DNA of 40,648 bases, taken from positions 1 to 40,648 of the forward strand of contig CALHRZ010000019.1 of assembly GCA_938038445.1 (NCBI GenBank). Reading direction: 5' to 3'. Below are positions 416-24,859 of the stretch, piece by piece. This DNA comes from an uncultured bacterium (GTDB lineage: Bacteria > Verrucomicrobiota > Kiritimatiellia > CAIKKV01). Under the pieces are notes generated by a model, which saw only the letters and a list, made by a program, of their open reading frames with translations, ran no database searches and was not told the DNA's origin. How positions within the stretch are numbered: position 1 is the first letter of the stretch; every line of letters starts with the position of its first letter. The translations under genes and the position numbers were made by a program.

Positions 416-2593
416 ATGGCATGGCATATTGCATTACCCTCATGTGGCATGTTTATCGGTACGGGCGTCTATCCCATGAGCAAAGACTACCTGCTCTCGG
501 CGTTGTATGCTCACCCGACCTGGACTCCTGAAGATTATCATCCGCTCGATATGATCGAACGGGTACTTGCGGACAATCAGGGTAATCTTATCCAGTTATG
601 GGGGCAGCCGCGAGGCTATGCGCCATGGGTTTACGCGGAATGGTTTTACGCGCTGGATGAGATCGGCCTAACGATTCCACCGCCCGATTGGGAGCACGGG
701 AAAAACCTCCGTCCTCAGGATTCTTTGGAATTGCAGCGACATGCGGACCGAAACGGTGCCGGAATTGTCCGGTTCATTCGGGCAGCGGCAGAAAAAGGGC
801 TTTATACGGTTTTGCTCTATGTGGAAGCGCGGCCCGAATGGGCCCGTCTGTTTCACGAAGCCGGCCATGGATATTACCTCGGGTATGACTTTGGTGAGCG
901 GTTCACCTTTCGTCTTGAAAATGCTTTGGCGAAAAATAGGGGCGAGGGCGTGATCAGCCTCCAATCTCTAGCGGATGATTTTGTTCGCCGTGTTCGGGAG
1001 CATGTGGAGGAACGGAAAGCAAACGGCTGGGGGCCCATTATGGCGACCAGCCTAAATTTTTATGTGGACTATGAGATCTTGGCGGGGACGGACATTCCGG
1101 TATTGGAGGATTTTGCCTTCAGTCACTTGAATATGGCCTCGGCGCTTTCCCGCGGGCTTTATCGTCAGTTTGATCTTCCGCTCTGGGGAAGTCATTTGGC
1201 CCATGAGCATTATTCGTGGATTCCGATCCGTCATCCCCACAAGTTTGAGCTTCTGCGGGCGGCGCTTTTTCAAAAGTACCTGGCCGGCTGCAAGATGGTG
1301 ATCAATGAAAGTGGCCAGTGGTTTGTGGAGGCCACGCTTTGCGAAGATTCCCCAAAATTCGAAGCGCCAGAGCTTCCTTTGACGCCGGGGGAGGTCTCCT
1401 GGGGAGGGGATCGTCCCATCCGGTTCGGGCCGTACATCGAAGCGGCTCGGCATCATTACCCGCGCATCGGGTATTCCTCGGAGGTCTGTCGGACCTATCG
1501 GAAGGTGATTTCGGATTTTTACGACTTTGTTCTACGCCACGGCACTCCCAAAGGGCAGCCCGAGACCCCCTTGGCGCTGGCGAAGGGCAACCTCGATTTT
1601 TGCGGTCATCGGTACAGTCCGAATGCCGCGATTGGCGGACTTTACGATCTCGCGGAGCAGGACCCGCGATGGTTTGAGGGCGCACCGGAGAGGGGATGGG
1701 AAATCGCGAAACGGGTTTTCTATCCTCTTCCGCCCATTCTAGAGCCTCATCCGAACCGGTTTCTTTCCGGCACTCCCTTCGGGCCCGTGGATGTGGTTTC
1801 CTTTGCGGACGATCGGATTTCCTCAGATTTTCTCAAGCGGCAGTACAGGGCGCTCCTGTTCTGCGGGTGGAACACCGCTTCTCCGTGGCAGTATGACATT
1901 CTGCTCGATTATGTTTTCTCGGGTGGGATCCTCTTTATCAGCATTCCCCATTTGAGCATGGACACGACCCGAAACTATGGGGCTTTTGGAGTTGCCGACT
2001 TGGTGCATCGGGGCGACTTCTCGGCGCTGTGCGGCGTTCGAGTGAAAGGGCGTGGAATACGCTATTATTGGGCAACGGCGATCAAAGGGAGGAATGATCT
2101 TGGCTTTCGGTATCCCCGACGCTTCGGCATCATGACGACGTGTCTCGGCGATATCGAGGTGACCGATTCCTCCGCCGAACCGCTTGTGGTGGAAGATGAG
2201 GGGGGGTATCCGCTTCTGCTTCGGCGGCGTTGCGGACAGGGCGAAGTTTATTTTTTGAATTCATGGGCCTATCCAGGGGCCCTGGATCAGGACGAAGGAC
2301 CCGGGGCGACGACCGACTCGCCGGGGTTGATCGGGTTCATATATCGTCATCTCGCGATGAAAGTGCGGGGGACGGTTTGGATCAGTGATGACGGGAGGGA
2401 GCCGGGAAACGAATGTCGTTTCATTGCCTTTTCGTATTTTCCAGAGGACGGCTCGCGTTGTTTTCAAAACGTTGATTTCGAGCGGTCGCATCGGTTTTAC
2501 TGCCATGAAGGGCAGGTGACTCGGTGTGTCGAGCTGTTGCCCGGCGAATTCCGGCTTCTCAATCCCTCCGAAGGAAAGGACATCCGATGTTGA
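416..2593 (+). CDS. Unassigned TIM-barrel glycosidase-like protein with GATase-like C-terminal domain
   Basis: The product has 725 residues and no clear signal peptide, so it is probably cytoplasmic. Residues 1 to about 400 read like a (beta/alpha)8 glycosidase fold, with many Trp, Tyr, His, Asp and Glu in strand-end positions, for example GYDFGERF and INESGQWFVE. A following domain with FCGWNTASPWQYDILLDYV and FSGGILFISIPHL resembles the beta-galactosidase trimerisation (GATase-like) domain. The last ~150 residues look beta-rich. I cannot place it in a numbered GH family. The start at 416 is chosen because a GGAG lies just upstream, whereas the next ATG (476) has none. Its stop overlaps the next start, so it leads the 416-9234 operon. 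Substrate is unknown. Confidence 0.7.
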   Translation: MAWHIALPSCGMFIGTGVYPMSKDYLLSALYAHPTWTPEDYHPLDMIERVLADNQGNLIQLWGQPRGYAPWVYAEWFYALDEIGLTIPPPDWEHGKNLRPQDSLELQRHADRNGAGIVRFIRAAAEKGLYTVLLYVEARPEWARLFHEAGHGYYLGYDFGERFTFRLENALAKNRGEGVISLQSLADDFVRRVREHVEERKANGWGPIMATSLNFYVDYEILAGTDIPVLEDFAFSHLNMASALSRGLYRQFDLPLWGSHLAHEHYSWIPIRHPHKFELLRAALFQKYLAGCKMVINESGQWFVEATLCEDSPKFEAPELPLTPGEVSWGGDRPIRFGPYIEAARHHYPRIGYSSEVCRTYRKVISDFYDFVLRHGTPKGQPETPLALAKGNLDFCGHRYSPNAAIGGLYDLAEQDPRWFEGAPERGWEIAKRVFYPLPPILEPHPNRFLSGTPFGPVDVVSFADDRISSDFLKRQYRALLFCGWNTASPWQYDILLDYVFSGGILFISIPHLSMDTTRNYGAFGVADLVHRGDFSALCGVRVKGRGIRYYWATAIKGRNDLGFRYPRRFGIMTTCLGDIEVTDSSAEPLVVEDEGGYPLLLRRRCGQGEVYFLNSWAYPGALDQDEGPGATTDSPGLIGFIYRHLAMKVRGTVWISDDGREPGNECRFIAFSYFPEDGSRCFQNVDFERSHRFYCHEGQVTRCVELLPGEFRLLNPSEGKDIRC

Positions 2594-5111: not shown

Positions 5112-5139
5112 GCCGGGCGGAAAGGACAGAAGAACGGTC

Positions 5140-8100
5140 ATGAAATGGTGCTGGGCCGCTTGGGCTGCGGGGATTCTCGCGGTGAGTTTCGGGAAGGGGG
5201 AAATGCTCTTTGAGGAAAACTTCAGAAATTATCGGGAGCGCCTTCCTCTTTGCACCGACGAATCCGACGTCTGGATTGCCAATGATCCCATTTGGAGTCG
5301 GCGGGCCGAGGCCCAGTGCCGGATGAAAACGGACGGATTCGTCTTTCGGAAGTTCAGGCCGGATCGTTTTGCCGGCGGCGGGAACCCGTTCGCATTCGAT
5401 CTCGATTTTCGGTTTCGGTTTCTTTCCGATCGGCCGGAGGGGTTTGAAGGATGGCTTCGTTTTGGAACCGATCCTGCGTCGGACATGATTCTCTCCCTTA
5501 CGCCGACCGGCATGGCGATGCGGGGGACTGGCCGTATGGCTGCTCTTCGGGGACAGGGCACCTGGAAACGTTCAATCCCTCCGAACGAAGATCGGCGGCT
5601 TTTGACACGAGTTGAGAAGGGCCGATTGGGGATATGGCTCGAGGACAATCGGCGGTGGGAGTCGGTCCTCTCCCTGGAAATGCCGCCGGGGAATTTGCCT
5701 TTGGAAGGTGTGAACTTCTTCGGGTATCGTGGGACTGGCTTTGCCTTGAGCGCAATCCAGATCCGTGATCCGGCTCCGCTTCCCGACTATCGCATTACCC
5801 AGCTTTTGCCTCTTTCGCGTCCTTTCGATGGTCTTGCACTCGTTTCGGGCAGGGAACAGCCCGTCCTTCATGTGGAGCCTTCTGACCGATTGGGCCTGGT
5901 GTTTCGAACGGGGACTGATTCTGAGGGGGTTGTGTTGACGCTGGAATGGGCGGATGGGACGACTGATCAGGTTGCGTTTGCGGTTGGAAACGCCCGTCGG
6001 GATCAGCAGGAGTTTCCGGATGCCCTTCTCACCATTCGAGGGCTGTCGAAAGATGGGCCGCGCCAGTTTTATATTCGTCCCTTGTTGCGGCGCTATCATT
6101 CCGGTTACAGCTTGACCGACACCTATCGGGATCTCGTGCGGGATTGGAACCTGTTGCCGAAGGCATCCGAGCAACCGGTCAAAGTGGAGTTGCAACGCGA
6201 GCCGGGAGGCTGGTCTTTATATCTTAACGGACGATATGCCGACCGATTTTCCAAGGAAGGACTCCGCGGTCTTCGCGTCGTTCTTTCGCCTGGGGCGGCG
6301 GCGGGCGGGGTATTTTCTGAAACGGTACCGTTTGACGCGGATCGGTTCCTTCCTCTGGATCTGGAAATCTTGGGAAAGGCCCGCGCCTTTTTCCATGCGC
6401 ATCCCTCGCCACCCGCAGGGTGGGCGACCGTTCGAGGCATTCCTTTACGCGTAGCGGATGGCTCCTCAAGCGCGGATGTGGGGCTGGTGGCGGAGGGGCA
6501 AGGCAATTGGGCTTTGGAAGTGGATGAGTATCTGGCCCGTTCCCCCTTTGATGGGTTTCTCTCGGAAATTCATTTTTCCGTTCCGGCTGCGCCGTATCGT
6601 CGGGCATGGGTTCTTTGCGCCCTTGATCCCGATCCGACGAAGGATAATGTCTTGACCGTGCGGCTGGGTCGGTATTACGAGAACGGGAGTGGGAACAATC
6701 TTTTGGCCGATTCGGTGGTCACGCTGCCTCGGCCGGGGGAGAAAAGTTCTTCGCCGTTTCTTCAGGAGGTGGGCGTGGTATCCGTGGAGCGCGATGGCGC
6801 TCCCGAGGGGACAGTTCCCCTCTATCTTGTGGAGGTGCCCCTTCGGAGCGGGCTCCTGCTCGATCTGATTGCGCAGGAGTCGGCGTTGAATTTCGAGTTT
6901 CTGGGTCGAACCGGACCCAACTGGCAACAGATTGACAACCGATCCAAACCTGACCCTTCGAAGACCAGCGGGGTCCAGCTGTTCGGGGTGACGCTGGAGC
7001 GATCTCCTGCGGCCATGGAGGTGATTCTGAAGCAGCCGGGAAACGTGTTCTGCGGTCAGGAGAAGCCCGAAATGGGGGTGTTAGTCAAGGCGGAGGTCCC
7101 GACGGCAGGGGTTGTGGAATTGCGCGCATGGAACGACCGGGGTGCATCGGCCGGTTCGATCGTGTCCGCCCCCTTCCACTTCGCCCGACGTGGGGAGCAG
7201 GCGAAGCTTTCCCTTCCTTTGCCCGCACCGGAAGTGGGTTGGTTCGAGATGGTGCTTTCGTTGAAGGACGAAAAGGGGGATTGCCTGATCGAACATCCTG
7301 CTCGATATGCAATTTTGCCGGCAGACGAGCGACGAGCGGGGTATGAATCGCCGTTTGGCGTTTGGTGGTTCGATGGGGCGCATCGGACGCCGTCCGATCC
7401 CGCCGTTGCCGGTCCGCTGATGCTCAAAGCGGGCATTCGCGTTGTGGGGTGGACCAGCCGGTCGGAGGCCGAATTGGCGCCGTGGAAACTGACAAAGGAC
7501 CAGGTCAAAATGCCGTTTTCGTTCCGCGATTTGGCGATGGGCGAGGAACGGACGAGCGATCCCGATGCGCCGGAACGGAAATGGGCCGCGGCCGTTCAGC
7601 GTGCGAACCAAGCGATGACCGCCCATTTGCAAAAGTATCCCCATCTCCGCGAGGTGCTGATTTTCCACGAAAGTGGGCCGGGCAATGACGTTCCGGTCGA
7701 AGTGCTCGGCTTGACGCCCGATTTAAACGAAGCTCAACGGATTCGCGAAACACGCTATGCGGAACTGTATAATCGGGCAGGCGAGTTTTTTCGCGCGAAT
7801 CATCCGGAATTGAGGACGGTTGTCGGCAACAACAGTTGTTCTGCGGCGAGCTTGGCCGCCATTTTTCGGCACGGGGGACGTGTGGAATATCTGGACGCGA
7901 TCGGCATCGAGGCGCCCTCGCAGACGTTTATTCCCGAGAAGCTGCAAGAATGGGCGTTGCAGGGTCAGCACATTGCGCGCGACGTGGTGCGCACGTTGAC
8001 GGGCCGGGAAGTACCGGTTACTGGGTGTTATGAATTTACGTATCGGTGCGAACGGGATATTGGGGAACGGCAGCAGGCGGAATGGTATGTCCGTGACGCG

Positions 8101-9234: not shown

Positions 9235-9337
9235 CGAAAACGACATCCTCCTCGCACTTGTTTGTTGAGACGCGTCCAACAGGGGAAGGAAATGGTATGA
9301 CGCCGCGTATTGGCCTTCGATGTGCACTTCTCTGTCC
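9235..9337. other. Intergenic gap between convergent genes
   Basis: The gap separates two genes that converge. A weak imperfect stem (TGTTG-A-GACG pairing with CGTC-CAACA, 9262-9281) is the only structure visible. It lacks a T-run on either side, so I do not call it a terminator with confidence. Confidence 0.3.
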
Positions 9338-10615
9338 CTAACGAATGGTGATGAGAGTGCCACGCGGCGGGGGCCGGTAGGCAATTTCGCCTTTTGTGTA
9401 AAGATCGGCGGTTATCCATTGACCCGCAATGGAAGGAAGCGTGATTGTGGCGAAGGTTCCGACGATTTCCACCGCGTCAATTATTTTAAATATGGTCGCC
9501 GCAGTGGGCTGAAAACCGGGTATTAATGATACTTCGAGGTGGATTCCATCGGCGAAAAGTTTTCCGGGACCTCGCGCACTGGCCTTCAAGACGAGCTGAC
9601 CATGTGCCGGCGGCCCCGACCCTCCCAGGGCGATCTGAAGGGTTCCGGTTCCTGGAGGCGCATTCGTGATCAAACCCGTGAAGGTCAGGGTTCCACCCTG
9701 GTTGGTTTCGCCCACGCGGATTGTTCCGTTACTGAGGATGATCCGGCTCATTTCCACCGTTCCGGTTCCTTGAATCATGGCGGCATTTCCCTTAAGATAG
9801 ATCCAGCCGTAATCGGGGTGGAGGAAATAGTAATAATATCGGGCGTTTTGCAAGGTTAAGTTCCCTTCAAAGTTCTGGTATTGTCCTATGCCTTGGATGA
9901 CTGCGCCGCCATCGAAGCGAACTGTTGCATTGGAGTGAATTCCCACTGTTCCGCCGAAGGCGATCGATGCCTGCGTGCCGGTGCCATGCACATGAATGAA
10001 ACCGCCTGCGCCTGGAGAAAGTCCATCCCCTGCAACCAGGGAAGCGCCGTTTGTTACGATCACAGTTCCCTGGAGTCTCTGCACATAGCCCAATGTTCGA
10101 AGGGATGCGCCTGTGCCGGATACAATGACAGCCGTATTGCTTTCAATCCACGGGTAGTAGGCGATCCGATCGCAGACTGCGTTCAGTACTCGCAACGTTG
10201 TACCGGCGCCCCGCAGATATAAAGTTGGCTTAAAGTTTCCTATGTATCCCGGATTCAATCGCTGGATGGTTCCATTCGTAACGGTAAGCATAGTGGGGCT
10301 ATTCAGCGTGCCGATGGTATTCGAGCTTTCACGATCCAGCGAGTAGATAAAACCTTGCAGGTCAAAGGTTACAGACCCGGCCGAAACGATCACCGTGTGG
10401 TTGGTGACAGATCCGGTCCAGAACACAGTGTAGGTATTGGATTGTGAAAAAATCACCGTATCGTTGGTGCCGGGCATCTGATTCGGCGACCAGTTATTCG
10501 GATCCTGAAAATTTCCGCCGGCATCATTGGTCCAATAGAACACGTCGGCCCGTGCGACGGCCGTTATGAAAGCCAGACCGATTATGTAAAACATAAGCCG
10601 CTTTTGGATTTTCAT
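9338..10615 (-). CDS. Secreted beta-rich surface protein, autotransporter/beta-helix-like
   Basis: The product is 425 residues with a signal peptide (MKIQKRLMFYIIGLAFITAV, cleavage near ARA-D). The mature start, FYWTNDAGGNFQDPNNW followed by PGTNDTVIF, is the pattern seen at the head of autotransporter-like and PEP-CTERM-like passenger proteins in Verrucomicrobiota and Planctomycetota. The rest is Gly/Thr/Asn-rich with repeated short strands (for example NGTIRVGETNQGGTLTFTG), suggesting a solenoid. It ends in PPRGTLITIR, a tail also seen on the 14692 product. An AGGAGG ribosome binding site sits 5 nt before the start. It is transcribed against its neighbours, so it is not part of either operon. 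Probable role: cell-surface or extracellular binding protein. Confidence 0.75.
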   Translation of the reverse strand: MKIQKRLMFYIIGLAFITAVARADVFYWTNDAGGNFQDPNNWSPNQMPGTNDTVIFSQSNTYTVFWTGSVTNHTVIVSAGSVTFDLQGFIYSLDRESSNTIGTLNSPTMLTVTNGTIQRLNPGYIGNFKPTLYLRGAGTTLRVLNAVCDRIAYYPWIESNTAVIVSGTGASLRTLGYVQRLQGTVIVTNGASLVAGDGLSPGAGGFIHVHGTGTQASIAFGGTVGIHSNATVRFDGGAVIQGIGQYQNFEGNLTLQNARYYYYFLHPDYGWIYLKGNAAMIQGTGTVEMSRIILSNGTIRVGETNQGGTLTFTGLITNAPPGTGTLQIALGGSGPPAHGQLVLKASARGPGKLFADGIHLEVSLIPGFQPTAATIFKIIDAVEIVGTFATITLPSIAGQWITADLYTKGEIAYRPPPRGTLITIR

Positions 10616-12531: not shown

Positions 12532-12536
12532 GTCGG

Positions 12537-14678
12537 ATGGGTGGAAGCGTCTCCTCCAGGCTCGCAATGGTCCTGTTGGCGGTTGTTGTGGCGGAATACG
12601 CTCGAACCGAGGAAACTTCGCCCGCTGACCCCATGGCAGCCGTTGAGTGGCACCGGCGTCAGGCAGAGGACGTGTCGCTTCCTGCCCGAACGCGGATTGA
12701 AGCGTGGTCCAGGATGGCCGAGTCCTGGGTTCGGACGCAAGACGGGCTCGAATTGCATCGGATGGATCTTGCCCTGGCTGAGAAGGCGCTTCGGCGGGCG
12801 CTGGAGGTCGCGGATGCTTCGCCGAGTGATCTTGCAGACGCCTGGATCCATCTGGGGCGTTTTTATGAGCGGCAGGATCGGTTTGAAGAAGCACGTGCCT
12901 GTTATGCGAAGGCCGCGGAATTGGATCCTTCGCCTGCCGGGCAGGCCAAGGCGGCTCGCGCGCAGGCGTCTGCCTGGCTGGCGGAGGGGAACGAGGAACA
13001 GGCGCGGGCGATTTACGAGTCGCGGGGATTTGATCTCATCGAGCTTGATTCCAAACTCGGGCGATGGGACCGCGTGGCGGAACGGTGTGAACAGACCGTG
13101 GGGGACACGAACCTGGACATTCGGATCCGTTGGCGAGCCTTTTCGCGCCATTCCGTATGGAATTGGCGAAACGCTGAGGAGGAAACACTCCGCACGCTAT
13201 GCGATCGGTGGATGCCTTTGTTTGTGCAGTCGGACAGCAATCGGCCGTTGATTCTTCTTCAAAAATTCAAGAATGCTTTTTCTCGCCGGCCGACGTTTAT
13301 CGCATGGGCTGCGCCGTGGCTGCTGTCGGCTCCCGACTTGAGTTCAACCGATCGTGACCTTGTCCTTAGCGCGCAATTTCAGGCCTTGGCTTCCCTGGGA
13401 CGCGTGTCGGATTTGATGGCAGCTGCCGAACGGGCGGCAAGCGATTTGCGCGCGTCGCCGAAGGTTCGATATCGGGCAAGGCTGATCGTCCGCGCCTTTT
13501 CTCCCGAGTTCCGAGAGGGATCGGCATCGGCGGCGGCGGAGGATCTCGCGGTTTCTTTTCGTGAAGTCAAGTTGACGGCCGAGGAAAGATGCGATGCCGT
13601 TCAGGGGGTGGCGAGGGCGCTTTTGGCGGCGGGTCGTGAGTCCGAGGCTCGAAAGTGGCACAGGGCGGCTGAAGAGATGCGCGCGCCTTATCCTCGGGCG
13701 GTTCTTCCTTGTGTCTATCAATCGGAAGCTCCTCGAGACATCAGTGGATGGTTGGCCTCTCCTTTGATCCAGGATTTCACACGCGCGGGTCGGCTAAATC
13801 GGCCGTATGGGGAAAACCTGTCATTCCTTTTGGAAACCGATTCCGCGGTTACAGGGCGCAATGCGGCGCCGAAACAAAACGACGTTCGTGCGGGAGAAGA
13901 GGAGACCGCCGTATGGGCCGCATGCGATTCGGAAGGCATATGGTTTTTCTTTCTCACGCGGCATCTCCATCCTCCGAAAAAGATGGAAGGCCCCATTTGG
14001 GCCGGCAGTTACGAAGGGTATCTGACTTCCGGGCAAACAGATCCTTATTATTTCTTTCTGATCGAGATTCCGTCCGGCCGTCTTTCCTCCTCGTTTCGGA
14101 CGAGTTATCGGCATCGAACCCATCGGCTTGTCGATGTTGAGCGTGGGACGCTACGAACCGATACTCGGCGATGTGGCGATGGGATCGCAACCGTTCTGTT
14201 TTATGGTTGGGAGCTGTTTTACGATCGGCTGCCCACGGATGGAGGTGAATGGCTGTTTGAAACGATTCGATGGACGGCGGCGGGGGGCGTGAGCCTAGGA
14301 GGAAGTCGGTCGGTTCATAATCCCTCTCACTGGGCGTCCTTGATTTTCCAGGGGCTCAACGAGGAGAACCGAAGGGCGATCCGGCGACGCTTGATTCAAA
14401 AGGCCGTCGCCAGTTACCGGGAAATGCGACGTGATCCGGGAGGGCCGGTCGGCTGGTGGGCCGATTGGGATTTGGGGGATCCGGTGTTTTATAACAAAGC
14501 CGTTCGCCCGTTGGTCGAGCGGCTGGATGTCTGGGCAGAGGAAACTGTCTCCGATATGAGCGACGAAACGGTGGAACGGCTGTTCCGGGAGGCGGTGCCC
14601 CGATGGTTAGAGTTTGATCTTGAACTTTCCACATTGCGGGAGTATTATCTCAAAGAGATGTGGACGGAGATTCCGTAA
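12537..14678 (+). CDS. Exported TPR protein with C-terminal CBM9/DOMON-like domain
   Basis: The 713-residue product has a signal peptide (MGGSVSSRLAMVLLAVVVAE). Residues ~30-200 contain tetratricopeptide-like helices, for example ADAWIHLGRFYERQDRFEEA followed by an ACYAKAAELDP helix. The middle is also helical. From about residue 430 the sequence turns beta-rich with aromatic clusters (EGIWFFFLTRHLHPP, SYEGYLTSGQTDPYYFF, LFYGWELFYDRL), like family 9 carbohydrate-binding modules. A helical tail follows. No catalytic motif is recognised. The combination suggests an exported scaffold that binds glycan and partner proteins. It sits between the DUF4091-like gene and the beta-helix gene in one operon. 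Confidence 0.7.
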   Translation: MGGSVSSRLAMVLLAVVVAEYARTEETSPADPMAAVEWHRRQAEDVSLPARTRIEAWSRMAESWVRTQDGLELHRMDLALAEKALRRALEVADASPSDLADAWIHLGRFYERQDRFEEARACYAKAAELDPSPAGQAKAARAQASAWLAEGNEEQARAIYESRGFDLIELDSKLGRWDRVAERCEQTVGDTNLDIRIRWRAFSRHSVWNWRNAEEETLRTLCDRWMPLFVQSDSNRPLILLQKFKNAFSRRPTFIAWAAPWLLSAPDLSSTDRDLVLSAQFQALASLGRVSDLMAAAERAASDLRASPKVRYRARLIVRAFSPEFREGSASAAAEDLAVSFREVKLTAEERCDAVQGVARALLAAGRESEARKWHRAAEEMRAPYPRAVLPCVYQSEAPRDISGWLASPLIQDFTRAGRLNRPYGENLSFLLETDSAVTGRNAAPKQNDVRAGEEETAVWAACDSEGIWFFFLTRHLHPPKKMEGPIWAGSYEGYLTSGQTDPYYFFLIEIPSGRLSSSFRTSYRHRTHRLVDVERGTLRTDTRRCGDGIATVLFYGWELFYDRLPTDGGEWLFETIRWTAAGGVSLGGSRSVHNPSHWASLIFQGLNEENRRAIRRRLIQKAVASYREMRRDPGGPVGWWADWDLGDPVFYNKAVRPLVERLDVWAEETVSDMSDETVERLFREAVPRWLEFDLELSTLREYYLKEMWTEIP

Positions 14679-14691
14679 GGGAGGAAACGTG

Positions 14692-17403
14692 ATGATTGTG
14701 CGGAGGGCAATACGTCAAGCGCTCGAAGGGCTTCTCATTCAGACGGTTTTCTTGTCAGCGGGGTGGGGGCAGACAACGTATTACGTGGCGACCAACGGCA
14801 ATAATGAAGCCGACGGCTTGAGTTGGGCGACGGCCGTGAAGTCGGTGGAAATGGGCGTTCAGAAAGCCACCAATGCGGGGGATACCGTGCTGATCGGAGA
14901 CGGTCTCTTTTCCGTTACTTCTTTGTGGATTGAGGTGACGAATGGCATTACGATAACAAGTCTAAACGGTCCGACGAATACAATCCTGGACGCCGGGGAT
15001 GTAAACGGACGGCGCGTGATGTATGTCAACCATCCTGATGCGTTCGTGGCGGGGTTGACTTTAAGGCGTGGCCAAATGTCCCAATGGGTGGCGGGACCTG
15101 GAGGTCTTCGAGTCGATGCGGGTGTGGTCAGCAACTGTATCGTCACGCTCAATCGCGCCCTCCAAACGGGCGGGGGAGTTCGGATTACCGGGGGATTGTT
15201 GACCCACTCATTGGTCCATAATAATCAAGCGCACAGCACCCTCGGTACAGGGGGAGGCATTTACGTTTCCGGTGGGGAGGTGGCGCATTGCGTTGTATCC
15301 AACAACGATGCCTATGTCTCCGGCAGCGGCATTTATATGACAGGCGGCCGTGTCCGCGACACGTTGGTCATTGCCAACAAACACGAGACGATCTATTCAA
15401 CCGAAGGTTGTGGGGTTTATCTTTCCGGAGGGACGCTGGAACGGTGCATCATTCAAAACAATAAGGGGCGATACACCCGACGGGGTGGTGGGATTTATGC
15501 CACGGGAGCCGGTCGGATCGTGAATTGCCTGGTGATCGGCAACTGGTGTGAGGGCGAAGGGGGAGGGTTATATATCGCCGCCAGCACAGCGCAAGTCTAT
15601 CATGTGACGATCGCCGGTAACTACTCCAAGAGGGGAGGGCGCGGCCTTTATCAGTTGGGAGGTGCCGTCAGCAACAGCATTATCGTGGCCAATGGAAGCG
15701 TTCTCCGCGCAAGAAATGAAAATCTGGTTGCGCTTGGGGGCACCCGAGGGAATTTATGTTCCGATCATCCTGTTTCGGGGACAGCCATCGTAGTTCGCGA
15801 CCCTTTGTTTCAGGATGCCCAAGCGGGCGATTATCGCCTCAAACCCGGTTCTCCCTGCCGCGACGCGGGGGTTTCAATTCCCACCGTTGGGAACGATCTA
15901 CTGGGGCAACCGCGGCCGAACGACGGGGATGGGAACGGGTTTGCCGCTCCGGACTTGGGCGCTTATGAAGCCTCAGCTCTTAACGTCTTGGCCTGCCGTT
16001 TCGAAGCGGAGCCTTGGGAGGGGCTGGGGAATGCGACGGTCACACTCACGGCGGAAGCGGCGGGTCCGGACACGAATATCATCTGGTATGGATGGGACGT
16101 TACGGGTGACGGTCAGTGGGACTATGCGGGAGCCGATCAACAGACGATCCAACACGAGTTTGGCGTTGGATTTCATCGCGTCACACTTGCCGTCAGCAAT
16201 GCCTCGCTTGAGTCCGCCACAAGCGATCTTGCGGATGCGGTTCGGGTGGTGGCTTTGACCTCCTATGTCGCGCGGTCGGGGACCAATCGGGAAGAGCCGC
16301 CTTATGATACGTTGGATAAAGCAGCATCCAATATTCAAAGCGCGGTGGATACGGCATGGTCATTTCCCGGTTACCAGCCGGTGGTTCTCGTCACCAACGG
16401 CGTCTATCCACTCATTCAAACGGTCACACTGATTACCAATGTGACGGTCCTGAGCCTTGCAGGACCGGCGGTGACGATTGTGGATGCCAGTTCGATTTCC
16501 TTTGGGATCCGCCGCGCATTTCTTGTCAATCACCCGGCAGCCGTTTTGGCAGGATTTACTGGCCGGAACGGGGCGATTACCGATTGGGCGAACGGGGGAG
16601 GGGGATTATGGCTGGGGTCCGGTTTGGTCAGCAACTGTTGGTTCGGGGGAAATCAAACTTACGTGTACGGATCGGGGGCTTATGTGCAGGGAGGGGTGTT
16701 GAGCGACTGCCGGCTTACGAATAATACTTGCAATTCCAGCGGTGGGTCGGCGGGGGGACTCTATCTAGCGGGCGGTGTGGTGGAGCGCTGCCTGATTGCC
16801 CGAAATTCGTCCCTCGCGGGAGCGACCGGAATGGTCATGACGAACGGGCTTTTTTCGCATGGCATCATTGTAAGCAATGCGCCAACCTCGACCAAATCGC
16901 GAGGAGGCGGGGTGTTGATGTCGGACGGTATCCTCCGCAATTCACTTCTCGCATGGAACGGCAATCTGAATGTGACAAACGGCGGGGGTGCCGCGCTGAT
17001 AGGAGGACATATTGAGTCTTGTACAATTGTCAGCAATCGAGCCGCTTCGACCGGCGGAGGTCTCGCGGTTTACGGAGGAACCGTGACCAACACTCTTTTG
17101 GCGTTCAATCATGCTTCCAACGAGGTGAACGTGGCAGGATCCCTATCGTCAGTCGGCTATAGCTGTGCCCCGGAACTTCCTGGGGGCGTCAACGGCAATT
17201 TGGACGCGGAAGCGCGTTTCCAGAACGCGGCAAATGGCGATTTTCGTCTGGCTCCTGCGTCGCCCGGTGTGAATGCGGGAATCTATCAACCGTGGATGGC
17301 GGGCGCCGTGGATTTGAGTGGGGAACCCCGTCTCTGCGGCCGTGTGGATATGGGCGCTTTTGAATCGCCTTTCGTGGCCGGAACGATTTTGATTATTCGG
17401 TGA
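14692..17403 (+). CDS. Secreted double beta-helix protein with central PKD domain (choice-of-anchor Q type)
   Basis: ATG 14692 is preferred over the upstream in-frame start (14614) because GGGAGG lies just before it and it gives a signal peptide ending near GWGQT. The 903-residue product is two right-handed beta-helices (about 28-425 and 525-895), each opening with YYVATNGNN/SYVARSGTN and ending in a choice-of-anchor-Q type motif (PDLGAYEA and VDMGAFES). They flank a PKD-like domain containing IIWYGWDVTGDGQWDYAG. The two halves look like an internal duplication. Such proteins are surface-located in PVC bacteria and may bind or cleave polysaccharide; I see no lyase motif. The C-terminus is VAGTILIIR, like the 9338 product. 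It ends 3 bp from the convergent AraC gene. Confidence 0.82.
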   Translation: MIVRRAIRQALEGLLIQTVFLSAGWGQTTYYVATNGNNEADGLSWATAVKSVEMGVQKATNAGDTVLIGDGLFSVTSLWIEVTNGITITSLNGPTNTILDAGDVNGRRVMYVNHPDAFVAGLTLRRGQMSQWVAGPGGLRVDAGVVSNCIVTLNRALQTGGGVRITGGLLTHSLVHNNQAHSTLGTGGGIYVSGGEVAHCVVSNNDAYVSGSGIYMTGGRVRDTLVIANKHETIYSTEGCGVYLSGGTLERCIIQNNKGRYTRRGGGIYATGAGRIVNCLVIGNWCEGEGGGLYIAASTAQVYHVTIAGNYSKRGGRGLYQLGGAVSNSIIVANGSVLRARNENLVALGGTRGNLCSDHPVSGTAIVVRDPLFQDAQAGDYRLKPGSPCRDAGVSIPTVGNDLLGQPRPNDGDGNGFAAPDLGAYEASALNVLACRFEAEPWEGLGNATVTLTAEAAGPDTNIIWYGWDVTGDGQWDYAGADQQTIQHEFGVGFHRVTLAVSNASLESATSDLADAVRVVALTSYVARSGTNREEPPYDTLDKAASNIQSAVDTAWSFPGYQPVVLVTNGVYPLIQTVTLITNVTVLSLAGPAVTIVDASSISFGIRRAFLVNHPAAVLAGFTGRNGAITDWANGGGGLWLGSGLVSNCWFGGNQTYVYGSGAYVQGGVLSDCRLTNNTCNSSGGSAGGLYLAGGVVERCLIARNSSLAGATGMVMTNGLFSHGIIVSNAPTSTKSRGGGVLMSDGILRNSLLAWNGNLNVTNGGGAALIGGHIESCTIVSNRAASTGGGLAVYGGTVTNTLLAFNHASNEVNVAGSLSSVGYSCAPELPGGVNGNLDAEARFQNAANGDFRLAPASPGVNAGIYQPWMAGAVDLSGEPRLCGRVDMGAFESPFVAGTILIIR

Positions 17404-17406
17404 CCC

Positions 17407-18327
17407 TCAAGCGTCTCGCGGGCTCGTTGAACGAGCCGGCGAGCGAAGGGGACCGAAGGTGAGGGGGACAACGCCGGTCTCCCGGAACTCATGGGGCGGG
17501 ATGCCGACGATTCGGCGAAAGGTCCGCGTAAAACGAGCCGGTGTATCGTATCCCAGCCGAGCGGCGATTTCTTTGATCGTGACGGCCGGCGACTTGAGCA
17601 TGCTGCAGGCCGCAAGCATTTTCGCTTGCTGAATGTGTACATGAGGCGAAAGGCCGGTTTGCTGTTTAAAGACCCGGGCCAGATGTTCGGCGGAGACCGA
17701 GAGCCGAAGGGCGATGGCTCCGACGGTGAGCGGAGTCCCAATTTCCATCTGAACAATTTCCTGGAACCGACGAATCAGGACATGGTCGGCATGATGCTCC
17801 GGAATTGGCGAAACGGAACTGACCAGCGTTTGAAACAGATCATCCGCCAGCCGAAGACTTTCGCCGAGCGACAGCGTGCAACCCACTTCATGGTAGACGT
17901 GAAACGAGAGAAGCTTTCGGATGAAAGGATGCTCGATTGGAATGCAATAGACCGAGCCGAACCGTTGGATCAAATCCTTCGCCATTTCGTGAGCCGTCTG
18001 ACCGTAGAGGTCGATAAACACAAAGTGCCAGGGTGTACGAACCTCGGGTGGAAAATAATAGGCCATGGCAGGATCATGCGATTCGCAGAGAAAACCCTGA
18101 CCTGCCTTGACCGGCACGGTGCATCCTTTCCTTGCGAAGCGTCCTTCGCCGGCAAGGGTGTACTGGAAGATGACCCGCGAACGTTCCCGCTTCCATCGTC
18201 CTTCGTTTCGGTAATCTGGGCTTGATCGGGTCTCCTTGCCGATGCAATCCGGCCGGGGAAAATGGGGCAACGCGCCGAACGTGTGCAGATAGAGAAAAAA
18301 GTCCCGCATATCACCAAATGGCATCAT
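17407..18327 (-). CDS. AraC-family transcriptional regulator
   Basis: The 306-residue product has an N-terminal ligand-binding, cupin-like region (about 40-170, with QYTLAGEGRF) and a C-terminal pair of helix-turn-helix motifs (about 200-290: LTVGAIALRLSVSAEHLARV and IKEIAARLGYDTPARFTRTF, followed by GIPPHEFR). This is the XylS/AraC arrangement; ligands are usually small sugars or aromatic compounds. Start choice is uncertain: ATGs at 18327, 18324 and 18309 lack a strong ribosome binding site. It is divergent from the two-headed oxidoreductase gene, with a 114-bp gap carrying a perfect inverted repeat, so it most likely controls the 18442-24859 operon and perhaps the whole locus. Confidence 0.93.
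   Translation of the reverse strand: MMPFGDMRDFFLYLHTFGALPHFPRPDCIGKETRSSPDYRNEGRWKRERSRVIFQYTLAGEGRFARKGCTVPVKAGQGFLCESHDPAMAYYFPPEVRTPWHFVFIDLYGQTAHEMAKDLIQRFGSVYCIPIEHPFIRKLLSFHVYHEVGCTLSLGESLRLADDLFQTLVSSVSPIPEHHADHVLIRRFQEIVQMEIGTPLTVGAIALRLSVSAEHLARVFKQQTGLSPHVHIQQAKMLAACSMLKSPAVTIKEIAARLGYDTPARFTRTFRRIVGIPPHEFRETGVVPLTFGPLRSPARSTSPRDA
17421..17437. repeat. Palindrome between convergent genes
   Basis: GGCTCGTT-G-AACGAGCC is a perfect 8-bp inverted repeat inside the last codons of the AraC gene, 18 bp past the convergent stop at 17403. It could form a hairpin acting as a bidirectional terminator, but neither side has a T-run, so the role is uncertain. Confidence 0.45.
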
Positions 18328-18441
18328 TTCTCATAAAAACGCCGTCGATTCCAGGTTGCCACCATTCCCGACGTTCGATATTGTGTAATGCCAATGGATT
18401 GTTGTCAATCCACGCACGGCGGATCGAAACAAGGATGCGAA
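18328..18441. promoter_or_regulatory. Divergent regulatory region with operator-like inverted repeat
   Basis: The gap lies between the AraC gene and the 18442 gene. It contains a perfect inverted repeat TGGATTG-TTGT-CAATCCA at 18395-18412, 30 bp before the 18442 start. A symmetric operator is less usual for AraC proteins, which prefer direct repeats, so another repressor or a leader hairpin is possible. AAGGA at 18431-18435 is the ribosome binding site for the rightward gene. Confidence 0.5.
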
Positions 18442-21252
18442 ATGAACGGTTCCCATACCCTATCGGATAGGTTCTTTGATGTGATTGTCGTGGGCGCCGG
18501 CTGGATCGGAACGGCGGCAGCCCTTGAGCTTGCGGAGAAAAGGCGTTCGGTGCTTTTGCTTGATCCGGGCGCCGACTTGGTTTGGGAAAGCAGCCGTGCT
18601 TTTTTCCCCGAATGTGGGCCTGCGTTCGGGGATAAACGCTTTGAAGCGTTTTTGGCCGCGGCGGCGATCCGTACGGGAGTAACCGGACGGTTTCTCGATG
18701 GGGCGGTTGCGGAGCTCCTCGCAGGTGAACGACTCCAGGAAGCCGGCGTGACTCTTTTGTTTCAGGCGATGCCCCATACGGCCGAAGAGCGGCAGGGGAC
18801 TGTTTCCACCGTGTGGGTGACGGGAAAAAATGGGATATTACCCCTCCATGCGCGTCAATGGGTGGATGCCACGGAGACTGGACTCCTTGCGCGCCTGTTA
18901 CCGCTTGCCCAACCTTCGCGTTTTCCTGCGACGCTCGAACTGCGATATCACATTCAGAGGCGGGAAGGATTTCCCCGAATGGGCGTTTCGCGCTGGAATA
19001 CGGGAGGTTCGAAATGCCGCTGCATATGGACGGCTTCTCATTGGCCCGGCGAGTCGCTTTTGTGTTTGGAAATGGATGGCAGGGAAATGCGCCCCCTTCG
19101 CTACGTGGTTCCCGCACTTCGTTCTCTTCGGAAACGGCTGGGAGCGTCCGGAGCGGATGCCTTTGTCAGTCATTCCTCGTTTCGCCCCTTTCCCCGATAC
19201 GGCGGGACGGTTCGATCCGCGCTCCCGACCTTTGCCAATGCGGTGATCGCCTCGCCGGTCCTGCATCGTCGTGCCCTTCGGTTTCTCGGCGATCGGGTTG
19301 CGCTGGGTTATCAAGTCGCGCAAATGCTCGAAACGCTTCCGCGGTGTGAAGCGCCAACCGATGGCGTTTCACGTCCGTTCCGTCCGGCTCAACCGGACCG
19401 CTGTTTTTCTGCCGATGTGATGGTGGCAGGATTGGGGACCGGCGGCACCCTGGCCGCTCTGGCGGCTGCCCGCGAGGGCGTTCGCGTGTTGGCCATCGAA
19501 CCGCAGTCGTTTGCAGGCGGTATTGCGACGGGGGGCGGGATTCCGATGTATTATTGGGGCTGCGAGGGGGGTCTACAGGAGACGTTGGACGACCGAGTCC
19601 GTGAGTTGATGCCACTTTTTGCCCGTCGGGAGGAGTGGCCAGTCGGTTTTCATCCTGATGCCAAGCGGGTCGCGTGGGATGAACTTCTCCATGAGGCGGG
19701 TGTACAGGTTCTTTGGGAGTCCAGACCTGTTTCCGTTGTTCGGGAGGGACGCCACCTCCAATCGGTCACCCTCATGACCCCCTCCGGCCGGGTCGTAGTA
19801 GACGCTCCTGCCTGGATCGATGCGACGGGCGATGGCGATCTCGTTTTCCTCGCGGGCGCCTCCTTTTCCGAAGGACGATCCGTCGATGGGATGACCCAGC
19901 CTTACACGCAATCATGTGCCCGATTCGGCCTTCGCGAAACCTCGCTTAAGGGCATGATTTTCAATGTGGACACCGGCCGTCTTGATCCAACCGATAGCGC
20001 GGACTGGACTCGGGCGCGCTTGGCCGGACTTGCGGCACTGTCCGAACCGGTCTTCAACGCGCTCCACCGGCCGGCAGCCATTTCGCCCCATCTGGGAGTC
20101 CGCGAAAGCCGCCGCTATGACACGGATTATCGTTTGACCCTCGACGATTTGGTGGAACGACGTCGGTTTCCGGATGCCGTGGGCTATACGGGAGCGCATT
20201 ATGACAATCACTCGCGGGATTATGAATTTGAGAGCGACGACGTCTTTTTCTACGTCTCCTGTGCCGGCCTTTTTTGGGCCCGAACGGCTTGTGAAATCCC
20301 TTATCGGATGGTCGTGCCCAGCGATCTGGACAATCTTTGGATCGGCTGCCGGGCGGCGGGTATGACGGAGGAGGCCCTTCATAGTATGCGGATGCAGAGG
20401 GACATTCAACGACTGGGGGAGGTTTGTGGTTTTGCCGCCGCGCTGGCGGTGCGGCATCATACTGACAATCGAGGGGTGCCTTACCGCCAATTGCGCAAGC
20501 GACTTCTTCAGACGGGGGCGTTGAGGCTTCGGCCGCCTCGGCACATGGATTTCGGTGCTTCGATCGGTCCAGCAGACATGCGATACCAACCCCCAACAAC
20601 TGCGTCGCTCCGCCAAGACCTGGCCGCCGCATTGGGAAAAGGGGACGGCATGTCTCTGTGGCGGGTGTTCCGTCATGGGCGCAGCCTCCTTTCCCGGATT
20701 CTAACGGCAGTTCGAAGTAACGATCCGGATCGGTCATGGCATGCGGCGCAATTGCTGGCGGCCTGGGGGGACTTCCGAGCCGAACCCCGTCTTCTGACGG
20801 CCATCCGCCGGCAAGAAGTCGGCCCGGAATGTCAGATCGGGCAGGTGGATCCCCGGGAGGGGTCCCGAGGGATTCTTCCACGATGGTGGCAAGCGGTCAC
20901 TCTGTTGCGAATTTGCGGAGGGCGCAGGGCTTTTCGGGCACTGACCCATCTAACCGAATCGAAAGACCTGCCCTATCGGGTTCGCACAGCCGTCGCGCTA
21001 ACCCTCGCACGGTTGGCGGAACGGTTTCCCTGTCCGAAACGGGAACGTTGGAGGCTGGAATCTGCGCTGGAGGCGTTGGAAGGTCATCCTGAGAAAGACG
21101 ACTGGGCCGTGGTTTATGCCTGCGGACGAGCCCGTCGCCGGTTTGGGCTTCAGGATTCGCCGGCTCTTGCTCGCTTCATGAATGACTCGCGCAGACCTAT
21201 TCGACGCTTATTTCTGAGCCTGATTTCATCTCCCAAACAGGGGGTTCGATAA
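18442..21252 (+). CDS. Two-headed FAD-dependent oxidoreductase with HEAT-like C-terminus
   Basis: ATG 18442 is chosen over 18388 because AAGGA lies 6 nt upstream and the Rossmann fold then starts normally. The 936-residue product holds two FAD_oxidored-like halves. The first (about 10-310) has VIVVGAGWIGTAAALELA but a modified second motif (VDATETGLLARL) and no C-terminal hallmark. The second (about 323-700) is complete: VMVAGLGTGGTLAALAAA, IDATGDGDLVFLAG, LGVRESRRYDTDY and IGCRAAGMTEEALHSMRMQ. Residues ~716-936 are alpha-helical, HEAT-repeat-like. The first half may have lost activity or changed ligand. It is co-transcribed with the giant protein at 21278 and related to the single-headed 2587 gene. 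Substrate is unknown. Confidence 0.8.
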   Translation: MNGSHTLSDRFFDVIVVGAGWIGTAAALELAEKRRSVLLLDPGADLVWESSRAFFPECGPAFGDKRFEAFLAAAAIRTGVTGRFLDGAVAELLAGERLQEAGVTLLFQAMPHTAEERQGTVSTVWVTGKNGILPLHARQWVDATETGLLARLLPLAQPSRFPATLELRYHIQRREGFPRMGVSRWNTGGSKCRCIWTASHWPGESLLCLEMDGREMRPLRYVVPALRSLRKRLGASGADAFVSHSSFRPFPRYGGTVRSALPTFANAVIASPVLHRRALRFLGDRVALGYQVAQMLETLPRCEAPTDGVSRPFRPAQPDRCFSADVMVAGLGTGGTLAALAAAREGVRVLAIEPQSFAGGIATGGGIPMYYWGCEGGLQETLDDRVRELMPLFARREEWPVGFHPDAKRVAWDELLHEAGVQVLWESRPVSVVREGRHLQSVTLMTPSGRVVVDAPAWIDATGDGDLVFLAGASFSEGRSVDGMTQPYTQSCARFGLRETSLKGMIFNVDTGRLDPTDSADWTRARLAGLAALSEPVFNALHRPAAISPHLGVRESRRYDTDYRLTLDDLVERRRFPDAVGYTGAHYDNHSRDYEFESDDVFFYVSCAGLFWARTACEIPYRMVVPSDLDNLWIGCRAAGMTEEALHSMRMQRDIQRLGEVCGFAAALAVRHHTDNRGVPYRQLRKRLLQTGALRLRPPRHMDFGASIGPADMRYQPPTTASLRQDLAAALGKGDGMSLWRVFRHGRSLLSRILTAVRSNDPDRSWHAAQLLAAWGDFRAEPRLLTAIRRQEVGPECQIGQVDPREGSRGILPRWWQAVTLLRICGGRRAFRALTHLTESKDLPYRVRTAVALTLARLAERFPCPKRERWRLESALEALEGHPEKDDWAVVYACGRARRRFGLQDSPALARFMNDSRRPIRRLFLSLISSPKQGVR

Positions 21253-21277
21253 CCTTCCGTTGGGAAAGGATCCTCCG

Positions 21278-24200
21278 ATGAGAGTTCTGGACAGTGCCTT
21301 TCATGTGGATCGGGTGCTCGGAATCTGTTGCCTGTTGGTACCGATTGCTTTGGGGAAAGCCGAGGAGGGATATCGGGGATTTCCTCCGCACACTCGAATC
21401 GAAGCCGAAGGGGGGGATTGGGTCCCCTTTGCGATGGTCGAACGGGAAGGGGCGTGGGTCGCACAGTCACACGCGAAGATTCAAATCCCACTCCCCCCTC
21501 GGTCCCCTTCGATTCGTTTTGTCTGGCAAGCGGCTGCTGCCGATCCGGGGAATGATCTGTCGGCGACCCCTAGTCTGGAACCCTTGCCCGAAAAACGGAC
21601 AGTCGGCTCGCATTCTGCCGTTGGGGTTGACAAGCCGATATTGGAGGTTGAGTTGAGTTGGGAAGGAGGTCGAAAAGAAAAATGGCAAGCGATCCCTACG
21701 GACGGCGAAGCGACGGGTGCTCTTCCCGATGCGCGGTGGCACGTGCGTTTCAGCGGCGGTATTCCGCTCAGTGTATATGCTCGCCCCAACACCTTTTACT
21801 ACCGCGAAGATCGTCTGGCCCAAGTCAAAACCGAATGGAACCAGTTGCCTTCGGCTTCGACGTCGCCCTTGGCGGTGGAATTCAGGCGAAGGGATGATGA
21901 GACGGAACTGTGGCTTGCGGGACGGCTGGCCCAGACATGGACCGAAACAAATGGATGGCACTTACTGACGCTTCGGCTATCCCCCGGTTCGTTTCTGCGG
22001 GAATGGAGGATGGAAGACCAGGAGGACGAATCAGCGACCCGCATTGTTCCGCTGGACATTCCCTCCTTGGCGCGTCCGGCAGCAGGGCTTTCTAATTTTA
22101 CATTACACTTCCAAGAGCCGTCCATGAAGTCGGGAGGTGAGAGGGGACTTCGAATATCGACGTCTGGGGTTTATCTTGCCGTTGCGAATTTGGGGCGCCT
22201 TTCTTGCCCGGTGGACGACCTGGTCAGTTTTTATTGGCGGCGTACCGCTTTTGATGGTCTGCCTGAGTCTCGAATTGTGTCGGTTCCCTTGCGGCCTTAT
22301 CGAAGGATTCATTTGCTGGTTGCAGCGGCGGAAAATTCGGAACAGACGCCGGCCATGACGGTTCGTTTGACCCGGTTTGCCAATGGACGGGGGGATGCGA
22401 TGGCGGACACTCTGGTGCGTCTTCCCATAGCGGGCAAAGAAGAACCTCAGGGAAGCGATGTTGAAATGCGACCGGCTGGTTCGGTGGTCTATTTCCGCGA
22501 GGGGCAGGCGGAAACCGCGACGCTTTGGCGGGTTTGCGCTCCCCTTAAGACTGGTTTCATTCAGGACCTTCTGCTTGAGAACGAACAACGGTACGGATAT
22601 CGGGGTTCCATTCCGGCGCCCCGTTATTTGGACATCGAGTTTCTCGACCCGGTCGCCGGCGTGGAGGAAGAAGATCGTTTTCCTCCTTCATTGAAACCGA
22701 CGGGTCGGTCCTATACACCCTCCGGCCCTCCCAGTTCCCTGCTCGTATTTGGCGCGGCGCTGGAGATTTCTTCGGCGGCGATGACGGTTCGTTCGATACC
22801 GACTCCCAGCGTTTTTTATCGGGAGGAAAACCCGGTATGGGCGGTGGAAGTGAACGGGTGCGCGGGGCGGTATGGAGTCGAATGGCGGTTTGCCGATTTC
22901 GAAGGGCGGATCGTTCGGGAAGGAGAAGAGACCGTCTTGGTTCCGCAGGGAGAGGGAAGGGCGGCGATTCAGGTGAGCGTGGGGGAGTTGCCATACGACT
23001 GGTATGCGGCCCAATTCGTTCTTCGGGGGGAAGGGGGCGAGAGGTTGATGGAACATCGGGCCGGTTTTGTAGTGCTTCCACCGGATACCCGGAAGGCCGG
23101 ATTTGAGAGTCCGCACGGAGCGTGGTGGTTTCACTGGGCGCATGGAGGTGCGCCCGATTTTGAACGGGTCGGGGCGCTGTATCGACGGGCCGGCCTACGG
23201 CATGCCAACCTTCCACGGGTCACGGAAGCGGAAAGTTCCCGCCATGGCCTTTTCGAGTGGTGTGTCTATTGGAATGGAAAACTGACTTGGTTGCCTACGA
23301 TGGACGAGATCGTGTCGGCCTATGAAGCGCACATCCGTGCGGCCTTGAGCAACCATCCGAGTCTGAACACGATTATGATATGGCATGAATCGGATGCCGA
23401 TGGTGCCCGCATTCCGTCGGAATTGTGGGGCCGGCCACCCCCGCTGCTTTCCGATGAACAGGCGGTCCGCTGGAAATTGCGGACGGCGAAACTGACCGCC
23501 TTGGCCCAGATGGTTCGAGAGAAGTTTCCGGGGATGAAACTCCAGTTTGGAAACACCGGGGATAGTTGCGCGATCGTCGCTGAGCTTTTACGCCAGGGGT
23601 TTCCGACGTCCTACGTCGATTATGTGGCAGTGGAAGATCTTGGTCAGACGTTTATACCCGAGCGACCGTTGCCGGGTGCGATGCAATCGGCGTGGTTACT
23701 ACGGGAAACGGCGCGTGCGCTGGGATGCCCGACGGCTCGGATCACTGCTTGTTACGAATGGATAGGCCGAGGGCATCGGCCGCTTGGGCTTCACCAGCAA
23801 GCGGCGTGGTATGCCCGGGATGCGCTGCAGGCGCGAGCGTATGGATTTCATGCCATTGCACTCGGAACAATTCACGATGCAGGGCAGGGGTATTTCCACA
23901 CGATCTGGGGGGCAAACGGCTTAACCTCTCGCTATCCCTACATGTATCCCAAGCCGGCATATGCGGCGATGGCCACCCTGACGCTTCTGCTCGATGGGGC
24001 ACGGTTTTCGAGGGTGATCGAGACGGGAACGCACGCGTTGTTTGTGTTGGAATTCGAACGGCGGGAGGGCGGCTGGCTTTACACCTTTTGGACCCCAAGG
24101 GGGAAACGGGAGGTACGGCTGGAATTTGAAAAGGAAAGCCAGTGTCGTGTGATCAGCCTCTTGGGGCGCGAACGGTTGGCTCAACGACAAGCGCTTCTTT

Positions 24201-24859
24201 CGCTGGAGGTTGGAGAAGGGCCGGTCTATGTGGAAACCGAAGCGCCGCTCCAAAAGGTGGAGGCGGGACGTTCTTTTTTTCCAGACGAGCTTCCCCCCGA
24301 ACGCCTGGAAGTCGGCCATCCGCTGAATTCTCTGGACGGACTTGTTTTGATGGAAGAGCCGGATCCCCGCTTGGAACGTACCGACGGATGGCGATTGCCG
24401 CATCGTACCTTGGGCCAGTTCGATTTGCGAATCGTGGACGACGTGGAGAAAGGTCCGTGCCTTGAGGTGGCGTTACGCCCGGGCTCCCCCCTGTCTTGGG
24501 ACTTGGTGCATGAATACGCCATGATCCGGTTTGGCAATCCCCCGCTTATCCGGGGTCCGGTACGTTCTCTGGGGTTGTGGGTGAACGGCAACGGGGGGTG
24601 GGGGGATGTGATGTGGGAAGTGACCAATGCCAAGGGCGAAACGTGGTTGACGACCGGAGATTACTGGGATTGGCCTGGCCGGCTGGCCATCAATTTCGAC
24701 GGCTGGCACTTTCTACGCCTGGAACTTCCGCCTAAGTTTCAAACGGACTTGCGCATCACGGGCGTGGGCGTGACGATTCCCCGCAAGGCGCTGGCGGTTA
24801 CGGAAATGACCTCCGTTCGTTCGCTCCGGCTACGTTTGAAGGACGTCGGGGCTTTTTGA
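21278..24859 (+). CDS. Giant exported glycosidase-like protein (paralog of the 5140 product)
   Basis: ATG 21278 is preferred over 21260 because GGAAAGGA lies 7 nt upstream. A hydrophobic stretch (VLGICCLLVPIALGKAEE) acts as signal peptide. The 1193-residue product repeats the layout of the 5140 protein: beta-rich N-terminal half, TIM-barrel-like core (about 605-950) with IMIWHESDADG (E704) and ACYEWIGRG (E827), shared motif TIWGANGL (TLWGASGL in the paralog), and a C-terminal jelly-roll with GLWVNGNGGWG and INFDGWHF. The two glutamates are 123 residues apart here and 121 in the paralog. It follows the two-headed oxidoreductase by 25 nt, so they form one operon. No known GH family is recognised. 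Confidence 0.75.
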   Translation: MRVLDSAFHVDRVLGICCLLVPIALGKAEEGYRGFPPHTRIEAEGGDWVPFAMVEREGAWVAQSHAKIQIPLPPRSPSIRFVWQAAAADPGNDLSATPSLEPLPEKRTVGSHSAVGVDKPILEVELSWEGGRKEKWQAIPTDGEATGALPDARWHVRFSGGIPLSVYARPNTFYYREDRLAQVKTEWNQLPSASTSPLAVEFRRRDDETELWLAGRLAQTWTETNGWHLLTLRLSPGSFLREWRMEDQEDESATRIVPLDIPSLARPAAGLSNFTLHFQEPSMKSGGERGLRISTSGVYLAVANLGRLSCPVDDLVSFYWRRTAFDGLPESRIVSVPLRPYRRIHLLVAAAENSEQTPAMTVRLTRFANGRGDAMADTLVRLPIAGKEEPQGSDVEMRPAGSVVYFREGQAETATLWRVCAPLKTGFIQDLLLENEQRYGYRGSIPAPRYLDIEFLDPVAGVEEEDRFPPSLKPTGRSYTPSGPPSSLLVFGAALEISSAAMTVRSIPTPSVFYREENPVWAVEVNGCAGRYGVEWRFADFEGRIVREGEETVLVPQGEGRAAIQVSVGELPYDWYAAQFVLRGEGGERLMEHRAGFVVLPPDTRKAGFESPHGAWWFHWAHGGAPDFERVGALYRRAGLRHANLPRVTEAESSRHGLFEWCVYWNGKLTWLPTMDEIVSAYEAHIRAALSNHPSLNTIMIWHESDADGARIPSELWGRPPPLLSDEQAVRWKLRTAKLTALAQMVREKFPGMKLQFGNTGDSCAIVAELLRQGFPTSYVDYVAVEDLGQTFIPERPLPGAMQSAWLLRETARALGCPTARITACYEWIGRGHRPLGLHQQAAWYARDALQARAYGFHAIALGTIHDAGQGYFHTIWGANGLTSRYPYMYPKPAYAAMATLTLLLDGARFSRVIETGTHALFVLEFERREGGWLYTFWTPRGKREVRLEFEKESQCRVISLLGRERLAQRQALLSLEVGEGPVYVETEAPLQKVEAGRSFFPDELPPERLEVGHPLNSLDGLVLMEEPDPRLERTDGWRLPHRTLGQFDLRIVDDVEKGPCLEVALRPGSPLSWDLVHEYAMIRFGNPPLIRGPVRSLGLWVNGNGGWGDVMWEVTNAKGETWLTTGDYWDWPGRLAINFDGWHFLRLELPPKFQTDLRITGVGVTIPRKALAVTEMTSVRSLRLRLKDVGAF

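Follow-up and report, generated by a model that had tools for sequence, protein, structure and literature searches.

Anciently diverged GH39-like giant proteins beside two unlike flavin oxidoreductases in a candidate glycan-breakdown locus of a Kiritimatiellia bacterium

The stretch of DNA analysed here (the window) comprises 40,648 nucleotides (G000:C19:1-40648) within a 3.07-Mb genome of the class Kiritimatiellia. Four genes read on the forward strand form a first operon. P1 (P0001; 416..2593) encodes a 725-residue GH42-like candidate without a Pfam match of its own. The start of the second gene, for flavoprotein 1 (P0002; 2587..3972, ATG at 2587), overlaps the P1 stop. The third (P0003; 3969..5111) specifies an M14-like metallopeptidase or deacylase candidate, which matches PF00246 with 17.5 bits, under the cut-off of 21.6, and carries an HxxE pattern read by eye. 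The fourth encodes giant A (P0004; 5140..9234), 1364 residues long from the ATG at 5140. Window position 1 (G000:C19:1) is the end of the contig; therefore this operon may be incomplete.

The second operon, also on the forward strand, consists of the gene for flavoprotein 2 (P0005; 18442..21252) followed, after a gap of 25 nt, by that for giant B (P0006; 21278..24859). Both operons are delimited by gene spacing only. An AraC-type regulator gene (17407..18327, minus strand; PF12833, 79 bits) diverges from flavoprotein 2, and a GH123-like protein (P0008; 10759..12531, plus strand) is recognised by its PF22680 GH123 N-terminal domain (36 bits). NCBIfam yielded no match for P0001, P0003, P0004, P0006 or P0008. 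The open reading frames with in-frame starts at 2587, 5140, 18442 and 21278, from which the initial annotation proceeded, are all present in the sequence. Its pairing of a flavoprotein gene with a giant is seen directly in the second operon, where flavoprotein 2 lies immediately before giant B, but only loosely in the first, where the M14-like gene separates flavoprotein 1 from giant A. Some 9 kb separate the two pairs.

Other genes of the window include two for beta-rich-looking proteins (9338-10615, minus strand; 14614-17403, plus strand) with similar C-termini, GTLITIR and GTILIIR, perhaps a common sorting tail. Gyrase/topoisomerase IV A- and B-like genes (PF00521, PF00204; 24876-28759, minus strand) adjoin giant B on the opposite strand, and a 713-residue reading frame (28882-31023, minus strand) has no Pfam or NCBIfam match.

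Giants A and B are true homologues (31% identity over 1,200 alignment columns, E 7e-127). Giant A is longer by 171 residues, about 140 of them N-terminal, and both N-termini look signal-like to the eye. The fold was modelled for giant B alone of the giants. The prediction is a (beta/alpha)8 barrel with GH39 structures (clan GH-A) as nearest neighbours, the VIA-align lists leaving other families possible. In this model, E710 follows strand 704-708 and E833 follows strand 827-830, the clan GH-A arrangement of an acid/base glutamate after beta4 and a nucleophile glutamate after beta7. The catalytic-type glutamate pair is aligned and invariant in 24 of 24 giants, for which a retaining glycosidase activity is predicted. 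By homology to giant B, giant A probably has a GH39-like core as well. The giants are, as first proposed, glycosidase-like. Nine Pfam families match any of the 24 giants (E 0.1) and the GH39 model is not among them, which is why we file the giants as GH39-like rather than GH39.

At E 1e-10, giants were detected in 35 of the 345 class genomes and in 28 of 387 genomes sampled from the phylum, eight genomes being common to both lists; one relative is a Lentisphaerae MAG. GH39-like giants are mostly 1,000-1,480 residues long. One genome, G180, carries two giants in tandem (L069:6592-13622) that are tree sisters (starred value of 100); here, in contrast to the window, the duplication is real and local. 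In another, G240, the giant gene (L075:420-4628) is interrupted by an in-frame TAG. The genome studied here contains a third, distant giant (C19:104044-106692), around which 19.9 kb were read and showed no flavoprotein gene. A nearby gene (L029:11986-13380, minus strand) is sulfatase-looking by its motif.

The other candidate glycosidases of the locus are less sharply defined. PF08532, the GH42 trimerisation domain, is matched weakly in 9 of 17 P1 homologues (E up to 1, best E 7e-4) and not in P0001 itself; the GH42 catalytic domain is unmatched in P1, and PDB searches with P1 gave no credible relative. P1 and a giant share a locus in the window, in G005 and in G276, where P1 is beside the giant; in the G005 locus (L030) and in L066 a P1 homologue directly adjoins a giant. 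Giants occur in 16 of the 23 genomes with a strong P1 match, as against 35 of 345 overall, a contrast inflated by shared ancestry. A role for P1 as the giants' constant partner was rejected, since 20 further P1 loci (L121-L140) have no giant; six more strong P1 matches (G241:C121, G276:C272, G294:C255, G275, G289 and G297) fall outside the loci read. Homologues of the GH123-like protein adjoin the P1 genes of L130 and L132; their distance from P1 is about 1 kb in L128 and about 6.6 kb in L134 and L135.

Both flavoproteins belong to PF12831 (FAD_oxidored), as initially annotated, with 363 bits for P0002 and 259 bits for P0005 against a cut-off of 27 bits. Their layouts are unlike, and they are two different kinds of flavin oxidoreductase. 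P0002 (482 residues, 461 from the start at 2587) is a one-domain protein which, judged by eye, lacks an N-terminal signal. It has no sugar-specific feature, and PDB sequence searches return generic flavoproteins. P0005 (954 residues, 936 from the start at 18442) combines two flavin domains with HEAT repeats. Its AlphaFold2 model (pLDDT 87.6, pTM 0.90) shows a flavoprotein fold in each of the segments 23-321 and 338-690, in the numbering of the 954-residue frame. The best alignment of P0002 with P0005 gives 27% identity over 342 columns. Searching with P0005 finds 134 other proteins, some of which match one half only; in 30 aligned proteins of its type, the GxGxxG motif is found in 28 (domain 1) and 30 (domain 2).

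The initial annotation named a rarity of FAD_oxidored genes next to the giants' homologues as a result that would count against it, and the neighbour counts show such rarity. Outside the window, 3 of 51 class pieces and 3 of 17 phylum loci (gaps of about 1.1, 2.0 and 1.9 kb) have a PF12831-type gene no more than 5 kb from the giant, that is 6 of 68 giants. These six represent four lineages: G016; G209 and G250, whose loci are near-identical; G503; and G370 with G374. Many giant-bearing contigs are short; 23 of the 51 class pieces have at least 3 kb on both sides, and all three positives are among these. Weak or fragmentary matches were left out of the class search (G233, G281, G282, G290:C75, G240:C36), as were matches under 80 bits from the phylum search (G448, G407, G394, G479, G547, G545, G422, G388, G497); L028 was dropped as lying on the same contig as L054, and L084 counts as two pieces. 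A fixed flavoprotein-giant pair is rejected by these counts.

The proximity seen in the window could then be a coincidence, PF12831 genes and large glycosidases both being common and gathering in catabolic islands. We give this explanation a substantial, though minority, chance. PF12831 genes are indeed plentiful, with 181 matches in 24 genomes (about 82 Mb). The window's own genome has nine (E 1e-20), seven of them away from all three of its giants, and all of the 20 further P1 loci lack one within 5 kb. As a control, at least 3 of 138 GH2 genes in 24 class genomes were found, by eye, within 5 kb of a PF12831 match among those listed. Against this figure, Fisher's test gives p 0.35 for the 3 of 51 class pieces, p 0.06 for 6 of 68, p 0.22 with each lineage counted once and p 0.008 for 8 of 70 with the window included; the comparison is a rough one, the giants coming from more genomes than the GH2 control and having been scanned with a custom profile. 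The first of these values favours coincidence; the counts of 6 of 68 and 8 of 70 speak against it, as does the class count including the window, where 5 of 53 pieces (two of them the window's own) are positive and genome density would give 1.1 (p 0.005). Together, the 6 of 68 giants and the Fisher values make a weak link possible rather than a fixed pair, and the neighbourhood link between flavoproteins and giants is weak at best.

Two related loci also argue against coincidence. In G005, from another family of the same order, giant, P1-type, AraC and flavoprotein genes lie within 13.8 kb (L030). The giant is 31-32% identical to the window giants and is directly adjoined by the P1 homologue (48% identity). 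The AraC protein is 47% identical to that of the window, and its gene again diverges from the flavoprotein gene. The flavoprotein (29% identity to P0002 in the best alignment) is encoded 6.2 kb from the giant, and the genes just past P1 are, by eye, esterase-like and MFS sugar transporter-like. The second locus belongs to G503, whose giant has the shortest tree path to giant A. Here, a double-flavin/HEAT gene, a PF01261 gene and the giant A relative follow one another on the same strand, so that a flavoprotein gene once more stands two upstream of the giant. The double-flavin protein (L163:3567-7064; 1,166 residues) has an F5/8-type C insert and, by eye, a signal-like N-terminus, which would put the redox reaction there outside the cytoplasm. 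It is a distant relative of P0005, with 26% identity over 462 columns from the second flavin domain onward. The earlier suggestion that a redox step and the giant serve one pathway draws support from the G005 gene set and the G503 order; it survives as a loose possibility only.

Alternatively, the flavoproteins might act on a non-sugar group (an aglycone, a lipid or an electron sink of fermentation) and not on sugar released by the giants. Solved structures closest in fold to P0005 include a geranylgeranyl-reductase-like protein, an electron-bifurcating Fix/EtfX protein and urocanate reductase, and the structural matches extend to aromatic monooxygenases. A sugar oxidase leads neither list, a single pyranose 2-oxidase appearing at Foldseek rank 34. 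These resemblances favour a non-sugar substrate, but the fold of P0005 is generic to flavoproteins. Also on the other side, a PF01261 sugar-isomerase-type gene lies within 1 kb of a double-flavin gene in 4 of 10 genomes where 0.2 are expected, a pattern noticed post hoc. We regard a non-sugar substrate as less likely than not, though a serious alternative. A redox gene lies beside a sugar-isomerase-like TIM-barrel gene in G159, G091, G093 and G503. A bolder proposal, which we consider a long shot, is that P0005-like proteins are single-chain two-flavin sugar oxidoreductases: one flavin would oxidise the sugar and the other take the electrons, the keto-sugar passing to a PF01261 isomerase or lyase, and such enzymes would have been recruited repeatedly beside GH39-like giants in PVC-type bacteria.

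UROD-type (PF01208) genes, considered as flavoprotein partners, were rejected as too abundant for a few close cases to prove much. Matches (E 1e-5, eight genomes searched) number 25 in the window's own genome, 40 in G006 and 0 in G159; two in the own genome, G000:C25:618-1340 and G000:C5:121455-122063, are separated from PF12831 genes by about 0.1 and 2.2 kb.

The remaining explanation, that a functional flavoprotein-giant pair was duplicated as a unit, was suggested by the homology of the giants, the common PF12831 membership of the flavoproteins and the closeness of the two pairs, and is now highly improbable because approximately unbiased (AU) tests reject a sister relationship for the giants (p 1.0e-12 on 57 rows and 2.3e-11 on 74 rows) as well as for the flavoproteins (p 2.7e-6), long branches in the trees being the main caveat. 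The pairs thus have unrelated histories, and co-duplication, as first proposed, falls. Other placements, whose exact positions the long branches make uncertain, agree with this. Giant A clusters with P0013, P0014, P0015 and the G503 protein (starred value of 97), and P0005 with other double-flavin proteins (starred values of 96 and 98). Giant B has a near-basal position in a set of 49 rows, and P0002 groups, at no starred node, with others that mostly have a single domain. The differing domain layouts of the flavoproteins likewise argue against the copying of a unit.

We therefore favour, with a probability of roughly 0.6, the interpretation that the locus is a gene cluster for glycan breakdown, where two GH39-like giants, separate since ancient times, lie beside two different flavin oxidoreductases, the pair not having been copied as a unit. 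On this reading, the locus would be a rather ordinary glycan-degradation island that contains a GH39-like family outside the coverage of Pfam and a redox step separately recruited and perhaps acting on sugar. The signal-like N-termini, taken with the predicted GH-A barrel and its acid/base and nucleophile glutamates, suggest that the giants would act outside the cytoplasm, cleaving a polysaccharide or glycoconjugate by a retaining mechanism. The products would be imported, and P1 (GH42-like) and the GH123-like protein would then trim them; a flavoprotein in the cytosol may oxidise the sugar set free, or a glycoside of it, and expression of the second operon would be turned on by the AraC protein. 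Action of a flavoprotein on the giants' product is a possible but weak element of this scheme.

The analysis removes the tempting but wrong story of a duplicated redox-glycosidase unit. It also brings to the fore two families to which no function is attached, the GH39-like giants without a Pfam model and the double-flavin/HEAT oxidoreductases, either of which could lead to new chemistry of polysaccharides in bacteria that are seldom cultured. A literature search, with most subscription journals out of reach, returned nothing on either family. Neighbouring literature includes work on Kiritimatiellales and sulfated polysaccharides and on the flavoproteome of Brucella.

Among known systems, the closest structures to giant B are the GH39 protein of Bacteroides cellulosilyticus WH2 (PDB 5jvk) and PslG (5bx9, 4zn2), with 16% identity. 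Giant B differs from them in extending beyond the matched part by about 500 residues on the N-terminal side and about 200 on the C-terminal side, and the giants differ from GH39 structures in lacking the Pfam GH39 match. Both flavoproteins fall within PF12831, P0005 departing from the family pattern by its second flavin fold and its HEAT repeats. In Bacteroidota, polysaccharide utilisation loci combine a regulator with clustered glycosidase-like genes. The window likewise has both; unlike those loci, it gave no SusC/SusD-type match in a scan of 23 of its proteins. A further comparison is offered by DgpA and DgpB-C, which are reported to cleave C-glycosides by a 3-keto-sugar route (PMC8563793). 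There, DgpA is described as a Gfo/Idh/MocA oxidoreductase and thus differs from a PF12831 flavoprotein; the 23 window proteins scanned include no Gfo/Idh/MocA or PF01261 match (E 0.01). The likeness to that route, of working only, lies in the redox gene beside an isomerase-like TIM-barrel gene in G159, G091, G093 and G503. Should the long-shot proposal of two-flavin sugar oxidoreductases prove true, P0005-type enzymes would be the flavin-based counterpart of the 3-keto-glycoside route.
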